From Mesoterricola silvestris (lineage in GTDB: Bacteria > Acidobacteriota > Holophagae > Holophagales > Holophagaceae), in the NCBI RefSeq assembly GCF_030295405.1, contig NZ_AP027080.1, forward strand, positions 2,480,001 to 2,544,000: a DNA stretch of 64,000 bases, given 5' to 3'. Position 1 is the stretch's first letter. The number at the start of each line of letters is the position of its first letter. Below the pieces are notes generated by a model. That model did no database searches. It was not told the origin of the DNA and saw only the letters and a program-made list of their open reading frames with translations. The position numbers and the translations under genes are program-made. Of the stretch, positions 3,606-62,451 are shown in pieces.

Positions 3606-3667
3606 GCGTGGGTCGGCAAACCCTAGGTGCCTAGAAATCGCGATGAGGGGGCTGTTCCAGGTTGCGC

Positions 3668-3839
3668 GGATCCCCATTCATCCCATGCATCGGCGTTCAT
3701 CCCGGTTTCCGCAGGGCTGGCGCGGAGGTGGGTCGGAGCGCACGTTACTCGACGGCCTTGACCCAAAGGTGGCGACAAAACCCAGCGAAGTTCAAACGGG
3801 GATAAACAGGATCCAGGGGAAAACCAGGATAAAGAACGG
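3668..3839. repeat. Family A intergenic repeat, copy A1
   Basis: This repeat of about 170 bp fills the gap between two convergent genes and ends at the base before the MBL stop codon. Its left part has GGATCC, two TTCATCCC boxes and a TTTCCGCAGGGCTGG box. Its right part has GGGGATAAACAGGATCC, which pairs with the left end. Similarity to the other A copies begins earlier, at about 3623 (CCTAGGTGCCTAG). The copy at 35328-35493 is nearly full length in the opposite orientation, and the one at 31901-31986 is shorter. Confidence 0.75.
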
Positions 3840-13430: not shown

Positions 13431-13516
13431 CCCTTCATCCGGGCGCGCCGACCCACCCCGCGGCTGGCCCTGCGGGAACGGGGATGAAGGTGATGGAGGG
13501 GATGAAAGGGATGAAG
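13431..13516. repeat. Family B repeat, partial copy B4
   Basis: This copy keeps the apex (GCGCCGACCCACCCC) and the right arm (CTGGCCCTGCGGGAACGGGGATGAA and repeated GGGGATGAA units), while the left arm is reduced to CCCTTCATCC. It lies between the VOC gene and the unknown secreted-protein gene, just downstream of the latter's 3' end. Confidence 0.65.
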
Positions 13517-13525
13517 AACCGAACT

Positions 13526-18493: not shown

Positions 18494-18600
18494 ACCAGGT
18501 TTCCGACGCACCCCAAGGATCCCTGCCGAAGCCGCAGATAACAATTTCCTGATAACTTCGGTCCGGCTCCTCAGCCGAGAACGGACTGAGCTCGATGGCT

Positions 18601-18755
18601 CATCCCCTTCATCCTGTTCATCCGATTTCATCCCTGTTCCCGCAGGGCCAGAGCAGCGATGGGTCGGCGCATGCGGGTCAACGACGCGCCACCCCATCTC
18701 ATCGCTGGCCCTGCGGGAACAGGGATGAAATCGGATGAATAGGATGAAGGGGATG
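18601..18755. repeat. Family B palindromic repeat, copy B1
   Basis: This 155-bp imperfect palindrome lies between two convergent genes. The left arm reads CATCCCCTTCATCCTGTTCA, then TTCATCCCTGTTCCCGCAGG; the right arm is its complement (CCTGCGGGAACAGGGATGAA, then GGATGAAGGGGATG). The apex carries GATGGGTCGGCGC. As RNA it would form a long hairpin. Copies lie at 46438-46592 and 62097-62247, with a partial copy at 13431-13516. The rest of the 335-bp gap shows nothing else. Confidence 0.8.
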
Positions 18756-18828
18756 AACGTGCTCCCAGGGAAGGCGCCAAGGCGTTTCGGGCCATCGACT
18801 CCGCCGGGATCCGTGGCTCAGGTCCGGC

Positions 18829-31839: not shown

Positions 31840-31900
31840 GGTGCGTCGTCATACCCCAGGTGCCTTGGCTCCATGATGAAGGGGCCCTTCCTGGCTGAGC

Positions 31901-31986
31901 GGATCCCCGTTCATCCCATCCATCGGCGTTCATCCCTGTTTCCGCAGGGCTGACGCCGAGGTGGGTCCGAGCGCGAGTTACTCGAT
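31901..31986. repeat. Family A repeat, shortened copy A2
   Basis: It holds the GGATCCCCGTTCATCCCATC and TTTCCGCAGGGCTGACGC blocks through GAGTTACTCGAT. The right part present in A1 and A3 is missing. The upstream flank (CCCAGGTGCCTTGG, about 31855) also matches the A1 flank. It lies between two genes on the plus strand. Confidence 0.65.
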
Positions 31987-35327: not shown

Positions 35328-35493
35328 TTTATCCTGCCTTTTCCCCTGGATCCTGTTTATCCCCGTTTGAACTACGCTTGAAGTTGTCGCAACCTTTGGG
35401 TCAAGGACGGCGAGTAACATGCGCTCCGACCCATCCCTGCGCCAGCCCTGCGGAAACCGGGATGAACGCCGATGGATGGGATGAACTGGGATC
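35328..35493. repeat. Family A repeat, copy A3 (reverse orientation)
   Basis: This nearly full-length copy is in the opposite orientation to A1: GGATCCTGTTTATCCCCG at its start, GCGCTCCGACCCATCCCTGC in the middle and CGCCGATGGATGGGATGAA near its end. It lies between convergent genes. Similarity to the A1 flank continues to about 35525, so it runs across the stop codon and last codons of the histidine kinase gene. Confidence 0.75.
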
Positions 35494-35506
35494 TGCTCAA
35501 CCTCGC

Positions 35507-38005
35507 TCAGCCCCTTTCATCCAGGATCTTCCGGATCTTCATGAGCAGGTCGAAGGGGCTGGCCGGTTTCGACAGGTAGTGGGCCCCATCCTCGAAGAAC
35601 CCCTTCCGGTTGAGCAGGTCCGCGGTGTACCCGCTGATGAACAGCGTCCTGTATTCCAGGCCCTCCCGCCGGACGGCCTCGTAGACCTCCTTGCCGCTCA
35701 TTTTCGGCATCACCACATCCAGGATCATCAGGTCGATGCCCATGCCGGGCGCCAGGGCCTTCTCCAGGGCCTCCTTGCCGTCCGCCGCCTCCAGGACCCG
35801 GTACCCGAATTCCCGGAGGATGCCGCTGGTCATGGTCCGGACCACCTCGTCGTCCTCGGCGAGCAGGAGCGTCTCCGTGCCTCCGGGCGGCCGGGCTTCG
35901 GTTTCCGGAAGGGCGTCGGCCGCCGCCATATCCGCGAGGGGGAGGTAGATGCGGAAGGTGGTTCCCTTGCCCGGTTCGCTGTAGACATTGATGAAACCTT
36001 CGTGCTGCTGGAGGATGCCGTACACCATCGAGAGTCCGAGCCCGGTCCCCTTGCCCAGTTCCTTGGTGGTGAAGAAGGGTTCGAAGATCCGCATGCGGGT
36101 CCGGGCGTCCATGCCGACGCCCGTGTCGGAGACGGTGATGAGGGCGAAGCGTCCCTGCCTGCCGAACCCGTGCAGGGCCGGGAAATCCTTTCCGAGCCGC
36201 CGGGCCTCCGTGGAGATGGAGAGGGTGCCCCCCTTGGGCATGGCATCCCGGGCATTGGTGGCCAGATTCAGGAGCACCTGCTCGATCTGTCCCTCGTCGG
36301 CCATGACGATGAGGCTCTGCTTTCCCGGCCGGGTGACGAGCTCGATGTCCTCCCCGATGAGCCGCGCGAGGAGCTTCTCCACGGTCCCCAGGATCCCGTT
36401 CACATCCACGGGCCGGGGAATGATCACCTGCTTGCGGCTGAAGGCCAGGAGGCTTCGCGTCAGGTTGGCCGCGCGGTCCGAGGCGGCGAGGATCTGGTCG
36501 ATCAAGGTCATCTGCGGATCCTCCGCCTTCATGCGCATCTTCGCGAGATTGCCGAAGCCGATGATGGCCGTGAGGATATTGTTGAAGTCGTGGGCAACGC
36601 CGCCAGCCAGTTGACCTATTGCTTCCATTTTCTGGGACTGATTGAGTTGTTCCATCAGTTTTTTGCGTTCCGTGACGTCCCGGCCGATGGCCAGGGCCCC
36701 CACGATCCGCCCCTCGGCGTCCCGTTCTTCCGTGAACCGGACGCTGTGGGTCTGCATCTCGCCGGAAGCGGCCATGACGTGCATTTCCACTTCCCCCATG
36801 CCGCCCTTGGCGATGACCCCCTGGAGGGCGCTCTGGTAGGCTTCCACCTCGTGGAGGTATCCGGGGATGAGCCCTTCCGGCGACATCTCCAGGGGCGTCC
36901 TGCCCAGGGCGTGCTCGCCATGGCCGCCCAGGGTGGACCGGGCCTGGTGGTTGGTGTAGAGGACCCGGCAATCCCGGTCGTAGCGGATGACATTGTCGGG
37001 CGAATTCTCGGCCAGGGTCCGGAAATCCCGCTCGCGCTGGGCCAGGGCCTCCTCCGCCTCCCTCCGGTCCGTGATGTCCACCCGGATGCCCAGCATCCGG
37101 GTCGTCTTCCCGTCCCGGTCGTGGTCGACGCCGATCCCGGTCACCCGCTGCCAGCGGTAGCTGCCGTCCGCGTGCCTCATGCGCACCTCGCAGGTGTATT
37201 CGTCGAATCCCCCCGTGAGGACCTTTTCCATTTTCCGGGCCACCAGGGGCAGGTCCTCCGGGTGCACCCGCTCCGTCAATTCCCCATGGCCGGAAAATCC
37301 CCGGTGCGGTTCATAGCCGAGCATGGTGTAGAAGGTGGGCGAGGCGTACCACTGGCCGGTCCGGATATCCCAGTCCCAGATGCCGATGTGCGAACCCTCC
37401 AGGGTGAGCCGCAGGCGGTTCTCCGACACCTGCAACTGTTCTTCGGTCCGCTTGCGTTCGACGATGTCCCAGGAGAGGTCCCCCAGGCGGGACAGGATCT
37501 GGACATCGTGCTCGTCGTAATCCGTGGGCTTGTTCCCCACGCCGATGATCGCCGTGATGAGGTTCCCCCGGAACACCGGAACGACCATCTCCCGGAGGAC
37601 CGGCGCGTGGTTTTCCGGCAGTCCCTTGCGGTGGGGCAGGGCGGCGAAGTCGTTGTGGATGACCGGTCGCCGCTCCCGGACGCAGTCGCACCAGACTCCC
37701 GCCTGGTCGATGCTGTAGTGGCTGCCCTTTCCTTCGGCCCGGCACATGTCCTTGAGGGTGTGGGTGGACCAGTTCTGCAGGGTGAGGGTGCGCTGGTCGG
37801 GTTCCAGGAAGTGGTAGAAGCCGATCGTGCTTCCGGAAAGGGCTTCCATTTCGTCCAGGGCCGCGGTCAGGAACGCGTCCATGGTGTGGGTGCCCGCGAA
37901 TTCCAGGAGCCGGAGCCGGGCTTCCATGATGCTCTCATTCCGCAAGGGACGCGCCCGGGCGCCTCGCCGGGGCCTCGCGTGTTTCAGTTCTTGCCCTGCC
38001 TCCAT
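35507..38005 (-). CDS. Hybrid sensor histidine kinase (GAF-PAS-PAS-HisKA-HATPase-REC)
   Basis: This 832-residue sensor has no membrane segment. Order of domains: GAF (about 20-180, with GFYHFLEPDQRTLTLQNWS), PAS with PAC (190-320), second PAS (325-445), HisKA with phospho-acceptor His in GGVAHDFNNILTAIIGFGNL, and the ATPase domain (NLATNARDAMPKGG, DTGVGMD, GTGLGLSMVYGIL). A C-terminal receiver domain carries the phospho-acceptor Asp in DLMILDVVMPKMSG. It is a cytoplasmic hybrid kinase, and no output regulator is adjacent. A perfect AGGAGG precedes ATG 38005. Its last codons lie within repeat A3. Confidence 0.9.
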   Translation of the reverse strand: MEAGQELKHARPRRGARARPLRNESIMEARLRLLEFAGTHTMDAFLTAALDEMEALSGSTIGFYHFLEPDQRTLTLQNWSTHTLKDMCRAEGKGSHYSIDQAGVWCDCVRERRPVIHNDFAALPHRKGLPENHAPVLREMVVPVFRGNLITAIIGVGNKPTDYDEHDVQILSRLGDLSWDIVERKRTEEQLQVSENRLRLTLEGSHIGIWDWDIRTGQWYASPTFYTMLGYEPHRGFSGHGELTERVHPEDLPLVARKMEKVLTGGFDEYTCEVRMRHADGSYRWQRVTGIGVDHDRDGKTTRMLGIRVDITDRREAEEALAQRERDFRTLAENSPDNVIRYDRDCRVLYTNHQARSTLGGHGEHALGRTPLEMSPEGLIPGYLHEVEAYQSALQGVIAKGGMGEVEMHVMAASGEMQTHSVRFTEERDAEGRIVGALAIGRDVTERKKLMEQLNQSQKMEAIGQLAGGVAHDFNNILTAIIGFGNLAKMRMKAEDPQMTLIDQILAASDRAANLTRSLLAFSRKQVIIPRPVDVNGILGTVEKLLARLIGEDIELVTRPGKQSLIVMADEGQIEQVLLNLATNARDAMPKGGTLSISTEARRLGKDFPALHGFGRQGRFALITVSDTGVGMDARTRMRIFEPFFTTKELGKGTGLGLSMVYGILQQHEGFINVYSEPGKGTTFRIYLPLADMAAADALPETEARPPGGTETLLLAEDDEVVRTMTSGILREFGYRVLEAADGKEALEKALAPGMGIDLMILDVVMPKMSGKEVYEAVRREGLEYRTLFISGYTADLLNRKGFFEDGAHYLSKPASPFDLLMKIRKILDERG

Positions 38006-38121: not shown

Positions 38122-38643
38122 CCTAGGAGCCCGGCGACGTAATCGTTCGTGTCCCAGACGTTCGCCCTGTTTCGTCCTCGCCGGCCAAGCCGGCGATGAC
38201 GGGGGGGTGCGGAAGGGACGTCGGGGCTGGGCTCCGCCCAACTCACTTCGTTGAGCAGAAGGGATTTCGGAAGGAAATGGCTCTCCTGGAAGGCCCAGGC
38301 GAGGAGAGCGGCTCCCAAGGGTTCGTGGGTCTGCTTCGCGATGACCCTCTCGGTGCCGGTGGGCGCCGACGCTGAATGGTTTGCGCCGCCCACAATCTAT
38401 TGAAGTCAGCTCGAGCCCAGACCTGCCCAAGGCCCGGTTCGAGACGAGGTCGCTTTGCCAATTAGCGTTGGCGCCGTCCAATACCCTCCTCGCAGCACTC
38501 GAAGAGAGGCCCTGAGGTGGGCCGGGGCCAATGGGTGAAACACAGGCCCAACCATGGGATGAGAGCCTTCCGTTGCTGCGGGCTTGGCCCGCAGCAACGA
38601 ACCGGGGCGAACGTCCGGGACACGTGCGATTACATAGCCTAGG
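38122..38643. repeat. Family C giant palindrome, copy C3
   Basis: This 522-bp imperfect palindrome lies in a divergent gene gap. Outer arms: CCTAGG, GTAATCG and CGTGTCCCAGACGTTCGCCC on the left (38122-38168) and their complement on the right (38605-38643). Subterminal hairpins lie at 38173-38201 (12-bp stem, loop CCAAG) and 38571-38599 (12-bp stem CGTTGCTGCGGG, loop CTTGG, which reads CCAAG on the other strand). The apex arms are GGCGCCGACGCT near 38362 and AGCGTTGGCGCC near 38464. The two subterminal stems differ in sequence. No open reading frame with coding character was found. Confidence 0.8.
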
Positions 38644-46437: not shown

Positions 46438-46592
46438 ATCCCCTTCATCCTGTTCATCCAGTTTTTATCCCTGTTTCCGCAGGGCCAGTGATGGAGTGGG
46501 GCGGCGCGCAGTTGATCTGCATGCGCCGACCCATCCCTGCTTTGGCCCTGCGGGAACAGGGATGAATAAAGGATTAACAGGATGAAGGGGAT
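46438..46592. repeat. Family B palindromic repeat, copy B2
   Basis: Arms are ATCCCCTTCATCCTGTTCAT and CCTGTTTCCGCAGGGCCAG on the left, with complementary GGCCCTGCGGGAACAGGGAT and GGATGAAGGGGAT on the right. The apex holds ATGCGCCGACCCATCCC. A GGGTGATC/GATCACCC pair just outside (46434 and 46603) extends the pairing. It separates convergent genes. The rest of the 335-bp gap shows only a weak CCTGGC/GCCAGG hairpin at 46347-46371. Confidence 0.78.
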
Positions 46593-49219: not shown

Positions 49220-49729
49220 ATGAACCTCCGCAAGGTCCTGCCCCCGGTGTGCGCGGTCCTGGTGCTGGGCTGCGTGCGGGACAAGCCGTACGCCTTCGAC
49301 CAGCCCAATCTCCAGGTGCGCGCCACCTTCCCCGGCGAGCCCCGGCAGGCCCAGTACCCGGAGGACACGCCCTTCGGCCCCATCCTGTGGTACAGCTTCG
49401 CCTACACGCCGCCCGGCCGCATGGACCTGAACTACCGGGTGGACGTGGGCAACCTCCCCCCCGGCACCCGGGGCGGGGACACGACCCCCGCCGCCCTGGC
49501 CACGTTCCAGGGTTTCCTGGCCAAGCGCCTGGGCGGAACCCTGGAGCGCACCGATCTGCCCCCCGCCCGGGGCCCCGGCTTCAGCTACCGCATCCGCACC
49601 GGCGCCAAGTCCTGGGTGGAAGGCATCGTCGTCCTCAAGCGCGGCCGCCTCCACCACGCCCAGGCCACCGTGGACCGCGCGGACGATCCAAACCTTACGA
49701 CCTTCCTGGGGTCCTTCGCGGTGGACTAG
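49220..49729 (+). CDS. Hypothetical lipoprotein
   Basis: The 169-residue product has a lipobox (LVLGC, cleavage before Cys18), so it is a lipid-anchored envelope protein of about 152 mature residues. The mature part has beta-strand character (LQVRATFPGEP, DLNYRVDVGNLP, SWVEGIVVLKRGRLHHAQATV), resembling a small substrate-binding or chaperone-like fold, but no family was recognised. GAGGG lies about 8 nt upstream. A 500-bp gap with a family C palindrome follows. Confidence 0.65.
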   Translation: MNLRKVLPPVCAVLVLGCVRDKPYAFDQPNLQVRATFPGEPRQAQYPEDTPFGPILWYSFAYTPPGRMDLNYRVDVGNLPPGTRGGDTTPAALATFQGFLAKRLGGTLERTDLPPARGPGFSYRIRTGAKSWVEGIVVLKRGRLHHAQATVDRADDPNLTTFLGSFAVD

Positions 49730-49742
49730 GCGGGGGGGGGGT

Positions 49743-50160
49743 GCGGGTTCCCCCATTGCGCCCCGTTCGTTGACGCAGGCAAGCTGCGTCAACGGAAAGC
49801 TCACGGGCATGGGGGATCGGTGGGTGTTTGCACGCTCCGGCTTCGAGGGGGCCGCGTGGACAGGGGGGCGCGGGGCCGCCCGGAATGGCCTAGGGCTCCG
49901 AGGACACGCTGCGAGTGGTGCCGGGTCGGTCCGGAAGAGCGCCGACGTTGGATGCTAGCGTCGGCGCGATCCGTAGGCCGACCGGAACCACTCGAAGCGA
50001 TTCGATCGGGCATAGGCCCCCCCGGAGAGCCGCAGTCTCTCCACCGGGTCCCCCCCATCGAAGCCGAGGCGTGCCAACACCCACCGATCCCCCCCTCCGT
50101 GGGCTTTCCGCTGACGCAGCTTGTCTGCGTCAGCGAACGGGGCGAAATGGAGGGACCCGC
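49743..50160. repeat. Family C giant palindrome, copy C1
   Basis: This 418-bp palindrome is centred near 49952. Outer arms are 49743-49769 and 50134-50160 (24 of 27 positions pair). Subterminal hairpins are 49768-49794 (stem CGTTGACGCAG, loop GCAAG) and 50109-50135 (stem CGCTGACGCAG, loop CTTGT). Inner arms of about 50 bp (GGATCGGTGGGTGTT and CACGC, CGGCTTCGA blocks) follow. The apex is GCGCCGACG (49939) with CGTCGGCGC (49959). No gene is present. It separates two plus-strand genes. Confidence 0.85.
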
Positions 50161-56929: not shown

Positions 56930-57408
56930 GGCATGTGTCCCAACCCTGCGTCAGGGATTCGCTGACGCAGGCAAGCTGCGTCAGCGGAGGACTCACGTCT
57001 AGAGGTTAGGCGGAAGTGTTGGCACGCTCCGGCTTCGATGATCGTTGGGGGTGGGTGGGGGACTGGGGTTCTCCGGGTGGGCCTAGGGTGTTAAGGCACG
57101 CTTCGAGTGGGGGTGGTGGGGGTGGGGGTGCGCCGACGTTGATCGGTTGGGGGGCTCACAATCTCATGGATTGGGCGAGAGCCAATGGGGTGATCAGCGT
57201 CGGCGCGGAAGGGGGGTCAATCCGGGAAACTTGAAGCGGGTCGACTGGGCATAGGGCCATCAGGGGAGCCTCTGGTTCCGGGTTGGGCGCGTCGCTCATC
57301 GAAGCCGGGGCGTGCCAACACTTCCGCTTAACCTTTCGGTGTGAGTCCTGCGCTGACGCAGCTTGCCTGCGTCAGCGAATCCCTGACGCACGTCCGGGAC
57401 ACGTGCGC
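56930..57408. repeat. Family C giant palindrome, copy C2
   Basis: This 479-bp palindrome is centred near 57169. Outer arms contain GTGTCCC plus CTGCGTCAGGGATT on the left and the complementary AATCCCTGACGCACGT and GGGACAC on the right. Subterminal hairpins at 56960-56986 and 57351-57377 share the stem CGCTGACGCAG, with loops GCAAG and CTTGC. The inner block GTGTTGGCACGC/CGGCTTCGA matches C1. The apex is GCGCCGACG (57130) with CGTCGGCGC (57198). Its right end abuts the stop codon of the EAL/GGDEF gene. Confidence 0.85.
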
Positions 57409-61644: not shown

Positions 61645-61975
61645 GACGTAAAGGTACGGGTTCCGGACTTTCGCCCCGTTTCGTCATCGCCGGACAAGCC
61701 GGCGATGACGGGGGGAGGGGGAGAGGGATGGGGCTGTGCTTCGCCCAGGGGCTCCGTTGGGCGGGTGGGAGGCCGGATCGGGGGGGGCCTCCCGGGAAGG
61801 GGGTGGGATGGAGCGCGGCTTCCATGGGGGATGGGGTCGCTGCGCGTGGGATGGGTCGGCGCCGGCGGGCGCCGACGATGATTGGTTCGGGGGGCTCTGA
61901 ACCTGGAGGGGCGCCGCTTGGCAAATCAACGTCGGCGCGGGCGGTTTGGCCCGGACCACCCTTCGCAGCGCGTCC
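61645..61975. repeat. Family C palindrome, right-truncated copy C4
   Basis: The left outer arm (GTAAAGGTACGGGTTCCGGA, then CTTTCGCCCCGTTTC) and left subterminal hairpin (61682-61710, 12-bp stem CGTCATCGCCGG, loop ACAAG) are intact. The apex arms are GGGCGCCGACG (61868) and CGTCGGCGC near 61929-61937. The right arm pairs for about 40 bp beyond the apex and then ends without the right hairpin. No gene is present in this part of the 914-bp gap. Confidence 0.7.
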
Positions 61976-62096
61976 CTGGGGCCCTAGCCCAATTTCCCGT
62001 CTCACTCCAGCTATCACTACCGAACCCAGCATATAGTCATCCCATGAAAACTACAGCATTCCCCCTCAGCCAGGAATGACCTGGGTTCAGCGCTTC

Positions 62097-62247
62097 ATCC
62101 CCTTCATCCTGATCATCCGATTCATCCCTGTTCCAGCAGGGCCATAGCCGGGATGGGTCGGGGCATGCAGAGCAACTGCGCGCCGCCCCACCTCGGCGCT
62201 GGCCCTGCGGGAACAGGGATGAATTGGATGGACTGGATGAAGGGGAT
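62097..62247. repeat. Family B palindromic repeat, copy B3
   Basis: Left arm: ATCCCCTTCATCCTGATCAT, then TTCATCCCTGTTCCAGCAGG. Right arm: the complementary CCTGCGGGAACAGGGATGAA, then GGATGAAGGGGAT. The apex has GATGGGTCGGGGCATG and GCGCGCCGCCCC. It lies downstream of C4 in the same gap, between the pit operon and the 3' end of phoB. The remaining 200 bp up to 62451 show nothing clear. Confidence 0.78.
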
Positions 62248-62451
62248 AGAAACCGGAAGTGCCAGATTGGACCTGGTGGCTCCAATGCGGATCGTGATTC
62301 CGGGCGAGTTGCCCCGACCGAAAATCCGTGCGATTGGACTTACGGTTTTATGAGGTGGGGTGGGTCGGAAAGTTGGCTAGGCCCCCACGGGAGGCCCCAG
62401 GGCCCACCCGGCCGAGTACCACGGGCGAAGGTCCGGGGCACGGCCCCTCGC

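Follow-up and report, generated by a model that had tools for sequence, protein, structure and literature searches.

A dispersed family of giant palindromes beside stop codons in Mesoterricola silvestris is probably a new family of CTAG-targeting MITEs

Results

Giant palindromes in the window

The window, i.e., the whole stretch of 64,000 nucleotides that was analyzed (positions 2480001-2544000 of the 4.99-Mb single-contig genome), contains four copies, C1 to C4, of a repeat designated family C (Table 1). The initial annotation gave these copies a shared plan of outer inverted arms, a subterminal hairpin on both sides, inner arms and a GCGCCGACG apex; this plan is real and was seen in many further copies. 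C1 folds as described: its DNA fold reached -188.7 kcal/mol (z = -19.2 versus shuffles), and the RNA folds and the inverted arms I3, I7 and I16 agreed. The statement that most of the length is self-complementary applies to C1 and C2, which are very long hairpins (the C2 arms are 114 bp and 89% complementary), but not to C3, the interior of which is much less palindromic (z = -5.95). C3 has ends of approximately 44 bp, two hairpins and a paired apex, and its remainder is a set of local hairpins. We agree that the copies contain no gene, as the predicted neighboring genes stop or start outside them.

Table 1. Coordinates of the palindromic features (window positions, except family D, for which positions in the genome are given)
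Feature	Position	Strand	Remarks
CTAG with TAG stop codon of upstream gene (49220-49729)	49726..49729	+	14 bp outside C1; CTAGG also follows this gene in G004
C1, full palindromic element, core termini CGGG..CCCG	49743..50160	+	model R1 arms 49744-49846(+), 50058-50159(-)
C1 left subterminal hairpin CGTTGACGCAG-GCAAG-CTGCGTCAACG	49768..49794	+	
C1 apex hairpin GCGCCGACGTT..AGCGTCGGCGC	49939..49967	+	
C1 right subterminal hairpin, CGCTGACGCAG..CTGCGTCAGCG, allele differs from left	50109..50135	+	
C2, full palindromic element, long-apex subfamily	56930..57408	+	
C2 left subterminal hairpin	56960..56986	+	
C2 apex hairpin, extended loop, conserved T-G wobble polarity	57130..57206	+	
C2 right subterminal hairpin	57351..57377	+	
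C3, young-subfamily element, CTAG to CTAG	38123..38642	+	terminal motif CTAGGAGCCCGGCGACGTAAT at 38123-38143, 0 mismatches
C3 left terminal inverted repeat, begins at CTAG	38123..38159	+	
C3 left subterminal hairpin, CGTCCTCGCCGG..CCGGCGATGACG allele	38173..38202	+	
C3 right subterminal hairpin, CGTTGCTGCGGG..CCCGCAGCAACG allele	38571..38599	+	
C4 left arm, apex and right arm (inner part)	61645..61987	+	ends with CTAG at 61984
389-bp insert in C4 with family-A palindrome (62097-62247)	61988..62376	+	flanking CTAG at 61984 and 62377
C4 rest of right arm and right terminus (..GGGCGAAGGTCCGGGGCACG)	62377..62443	+	weak R1 match 62412-62442
Family D, own genome (L242-L245)	577529-577801, 2767660-2767932, 3706397-3706669, 4249069-4249341		

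C4, which had been described as truncated, is instead split by a second palindrome inserted at CTAG; its right arm resumes at 62381 and reaches the terminus near 62443. The insert belongs to family A (TTCATCCCTGTTCCCGCAGGGCC...), a second genus-wide palindromic family with relatives in congeners, which occurs in the window at 62097-62247, 18600-18756, 46438-46592, 13434-13523, 3648-3823, 35339-35514 and 31841-31985. Because the insert is bracketed by CTAG and its ends resemble the sequences beside CTAG at another family-A copy, family A probably uses the same CTAG target as family C. In G001, IS5-type transposase genes repeatedly adjoin family-A palindromes (378129-378255, 2160754-2160908, 2758240-2758394 and 3144105-3144259).

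Copy number and spread

Used as a BLAST query, C1 gave matches at dozens of places in its own genome. A covariance model of the outer arm (R1; 105 positions) matched 85 arms in the own genome, nine in G004, eight in G005, three in G002 and none in the congeners G001 and G003; copy numbers are species-specific. Among 45 genomes, the model yielded one marginal match outside the genus and none there that was convincing, and no match to family C was found in the plasmids, phages and viral contigs searched. A pattern search of genome contigs also returned three records from unrelated bacteria. The family has many further copies, in the own genome and in congeners; we catalogued 56 copies and estimate that the own genome has at least approximately 60, its counts resting on these searches. 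The copies are gene-less and approximately 390-530 bp long, and they are accompanied by internally deleted minis of approximately 70-130 bp, in which two ends surround a single hairpin. With a pattern for the core terminus, further inverted pairs spaced by 390-470 bp were obtained, together with 67-79-bp minis; the pattern gave 149 matches versus 101 in the reversed control, i.e., about two thirds are expected by chance. C1/C2-type copies are old, and the best copy-to-copy identity of their arms is approximately 84%.

Termini shared with a second MITE

Terminal inverted repeats are common to the copies, and the arms could be aligned in 58 ends. The C3 subfamily, the best preserved, numbers 12 copies; their identity reaches 92%, and their consensus, running from CTAG to CTAG, is 526 bp long. 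The terminal inverted repeats of this subfamily are approximately 44 bp long and start with CTAGGAGCCYGGCTACGTAATCGYACGTG; they run CTAG-GAGCCYGGCTACGTAATCGYACGTGTCCCGGAC, and a DNA hairpin follows on each side. The first 21 bases of C3-type ends are common to MITEs of 273-276 bp in the same genomes. The pattern of this 21-mer gave 35 matches in the own genome and 1-20 per congener, compared with 0-1 for the reversed-pattern control, and the matches include both C3-type ends (exactly at window position 38123) and the 273-276-bp MITEs.

These MITEs, designated family D, are palindromic with a branched fold and have CTAG on both sides. Pairs of copies are 97-99% identical, which marks family D as recently mobile. 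It resembles the giant palindromes in its terminal CTAGGAGCCTGNCNA(C/A)GTAAT and its CTAG boundaries, whereas its interior is unrelated to theirs by eye. Possession of the same ends as a recently mobile element marks the giant palindromes as MITEs, by the customary reasoning from common termini. The initial annotation knew of no named family with this plan, and none matches; the terminus, however, is common to another MITE of the same genomes. The 21-mer is that with which a 275-bp palindrome adjoining an IS5-type element of the own genome begins: its inverted ends, perfect over 35 bp, start with CTAGGAGCCTGTCTACGTAAT. An origin of the copy-specific outer arms by insertion into terminator loops was rejected, as the terminal sequence consists largely of the element's own inverted repeat.

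Position at stop codons and CTAG

Among the 55 copies with usable neighbors, 31 lie between convergent, 22 between codirectional and two between divergent genes. The convergent proportion (31/55) exceeds the 15% of gene pairs in 1.52 Mb of G004 (p = 2.5e-12), and almost every codirectional copy abuts a gene on its stop-codon side. These gene calls come from our simple codon-usage scan, in which single cases may be wrong. A median of 8.5 bp separates the copies from the stop codon that faces them. This codon is TAG in 57 of 84 cases versus 398 of 1210 in the 1.52 Mb of G004 (p = 4e-10), and a CTAG lies no more than 35 bp outside the element at 48 of 112 ends versus 222 of 1210 gene-3'-end controls (p = 1.4e-8). 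CTAG is present even at seven of the 26 ends that face no stop codon, where approximately 0.3 would be expected from the genome-wide rate. More than half of the ends have no nearby CTAG, and where CTAG is present its spacing from the core terminus is variable.

CTAG is rare in this genus of 69% GC (0.29 per kb, or about 444 in 1.52 Mb), and a C followed by a TAG stop codon accounts for 200 of these approximately 444 words (about 45%). The concentration of CTAG at stop codons explains why nearly all copies lie beside one: an element that seeks CTAG and is tolerated only outside genes would accumulate hard against stop codons and between convergent genes. A puzzling pattern would thereby have a simple reason, namely that a GC-rich genome steers a CTAG-seeking element to stop codons, and a mobile element could thus settle at dozens of gene ends while leaving the genes intact.

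Empty sites in relatives

Downstream of the gene that precedes C1, the element is absent in G001 and G002, and other DNA is found there in G004. C2 is absent at the orthologous site in G004, G005 and G001, and C4 at that in G005 and G001. We compared with G004 those own loci for which both flanks were found in G004. Almost no DNA separates the flanks of C2, L032, L043 and L052 in that genome, and only 22-126 bp those of L029, L035, L039, L098, L104 and L105. The cleanest case is L052, where G004 reads CCTAGG-TACC versus CCTAGG-element-CCTTGG-GTAC in the own genome; this fits a CTAG target duplication with one substitution, and no family-C copy shows an exact duplication. CTAG stands at both ends of C3 and several other copies, and many copies show no target-site duplication.

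One convergent site (L028/L113) is occupied by a 420-bp copy in the own genome (G000) and by a 127-bp mini in G004, and at another (L048/L120) clearly different family members are present in G000 and G005. Some insertion sites are therefore old or were used twice. The paired empty and occupied sites form a natural set for asking whether the hairpins replace terminators.

Pairing within and between elements

It had been proposed that pairing is conserved more than sequence. This holds for the outer ~90 columns and the subterminal hairpin, but not for the inner columns 101-200, in which pairing within an element is no better than between elements. In the outer ~90 columns, arm matching within elements exceeds that between elements (z of about 2.4 to 6.4), except in the nearly invariant columns 31-40. 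Over the 58 arms, pairing in the subterminal hairpin reaches 99.1%, with 40 double-change cells and changes on both sides in five of 11 pairs; one-sided G-U changes, i.e., G-U intermediates, were absent from it in these arms. Several elements have differing hairpin alleles in the two arms, each allele being internally matched.

Against a tree-simulated null for covariation, a hairpin column pair alone stood out (E = 0 in the right arm and 0.15 in the left), and no long-range covariation between the arms exceeded this phylogenetic null. The T-G wobble of the apex is conserved in about two dozen copies and gives most elements a polarity. We examined strand-specific RNA by comparing G-U with A-C on the polarity-defined strand: G-U was in excess in the outer stem (p = 0.02), a weak signal that is also uneven, with ratios of 17:0 in the inner part of C2 and 1:15 in L049. 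Thus, this test did not support a strand-specific RNA. No Rfam family matched in the window at the gathering score, and four loci gave only sub-threshold hits at E <= 0.5.

The restriction of co-adaptation to the outer columns, the compensatory hairpin changes without G-U intermediates and the arm-specific alleles point to maintenance of the palindrome at the DNA level, through template switching or a need of transposition, rather than by selection on RNA. Strong pairing within copies together with compensatory changes need not imply a functional RNA.

Search for a transposase

We searched for an autonomous source with the core- and terminal-motif patterns and checked the open reading frames (ORFs) of long pairs. 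With these patterns, no autonomous copy with family ends was found in the congeners or, among the matches listed (first 3.27 Mb), in the own genome. The searches and the ORF checks of the long pairs L046, L114 and L292 yielded only neighboring host genes, composites or gene-flanking copies. The own genome gave no match to the Y1 transposase (PF01797), none to an IS630 transposase, and only two IS5-type hits. The latter elements are bounded by CTAG, with ends CTAGGGGCTGTCGGC / GGGGCTGTCGGCAAACC that resemble the family ends only over CTAGG-GC-TGTC. The second ORF of the own IS5-type element (145 aa, L204:1989-2426) encodes a protein that resembles the GxxExxY type. G001 is rich in IS5-type copies, the ends of which (CTAGG-GTGTGTTCGTAATC) partly resemble those of family C; this likeness is statistically weak, with 62-262 of 5000 shuffles (about 1-5%) as good. 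An IS5-type enzyme is our best guess for the partner. IS630 was rejected in this role, as it is absent from the own genome and the IS630 of G004 has different ends.

Discussion

The initial annotation left open whether these palindromes are a structured RNA, a non-autonomous mobile element or a chromosome-architecture site. The empty orthologous sites, the terminus shared with recently mobile MITEs, the CTAG preference and the species-specific copy numbers argue for the mobile element, and we consider, with a probability of roughly 80%, that family C is a new, elaborately palindromic family of non-autonomous, CTAG-targeting MITEs. The elements would be moved by cut-and-paste into CTAG or CTAG-like sites, presumably with duplication of the target, by a transposase supplied in trans; a CTAG-preferring DDE enzyme of IS5 type is the most likely candidate. 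Several points weigh against this reading: the searches described above gave no autonomous copy with family ends, the likeness to IS5-type ends is weak, more than half of the ends have no CTAG nearby, no copy shows an exact target duplication and the C1/C2-type copies are old. A role in chromosome architecture found no support, as the presence of copies varies between congeners and is linked to CTAG.

Bacterial MITEs mobilized by DDE insertion sequences are the general kind to which family C would belong (PMC2229807, PMC3852290). Like these, it is gene-less and has terminal inverted repeats, many dispersed intergenic copies, empty sites and internally deleted forms. Unlike them, it is longer, its C1/C2 subfamilies are almost wholly palindromic, each end encloses a covarying DNA hairpin, the apex hairpin has a fixed polarity and a partner transposase was not found. 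ERIC/RU-type repeats of enterobacteria, like family C, are intergenic, MITE-like and mobile, and no gene product is known to move them. Their units measure 103-168 bp (PMC2759123).

An alternative is that the elements are functional bidirectional terminators or 3'-end structures, the hairpins of which end or stabilize transcripts on both sides, so that selection sets the convergent position. The predominance of convergent sites and the short gaps to stop codons would fit, as would the co-adaptation of the outer stems within elements, and at L035, L098 and L105 the empty sites in G004 hold an ordinary terminator-like hairpin with no counterpart in the own genome. The elements may have taken over as bidirectional terminators, replacing the hairpin of the relative at some sites, with the outer ~90-bp stem selected for pairing; this would amount to a large-scale replacement of terminators by a mobile element. 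However, the same positions would be expected from CTAG targeting, and the enrichment of CTAG extends to ends without a facing stop codon. No T-run is apparent at the ends, orientation follows no rule (in codirectional settings, the apex polarity matches the direction of the genes in five cases and opposes it in three), and copies come and go between congeners. We therefore regard a terminator function as unlikely, with perhaps one chance in eight or so left to it.

Still less probable is a structured non-coding RNA family with a long helix conserved by selection on RNA. The nearly complete pairing and double changes of the subterminal hairpin, the conserved polarity of the apex and the G-U excess speak for it; yet the hairpin has no one-sided G-U changes, only a hairpin pair and no arm-to-arm pair stands out against the tree-simulated null, the G-U excess is heterogeneous, no Rfam family matches and the sites are empty in congeners. 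We give equally little credence to spread by a RAYT (Y1 tyrosine) transposase that recognizes single-stranded hairpins, as for REP/REPIN-type elements. At about 100 bp, REPINs are short, and they rely on a Y1 transposase. Family C shares with REPINs and BIMEs (PMC3116915, PMC2817692) the two inverted hairpins per unit, the intergenic location and the high copy number. Many of its copies also show no plain target duplication, and RAYT-like genes are present in G003 and G004. In contrast, the copies of family C are 390-530 bp long and carry, at their ends, long inverted repeats that begin at CTAG; no Y1 gene is present in the own genome, where copies are by far the most numerous, and no such hairpins occur near the Y1 genes of congeners.

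Among the congeners, G005 contains a 698-bp palindrome with very long, near-perfect arms (L122:1391-2088), which is probably a further subfamily. In G004, IS630-type elements (742890, 2909303 and others; L192-L199) are in several cases inserted at CTAG directly beside giant palindromes or family-D MITEs.
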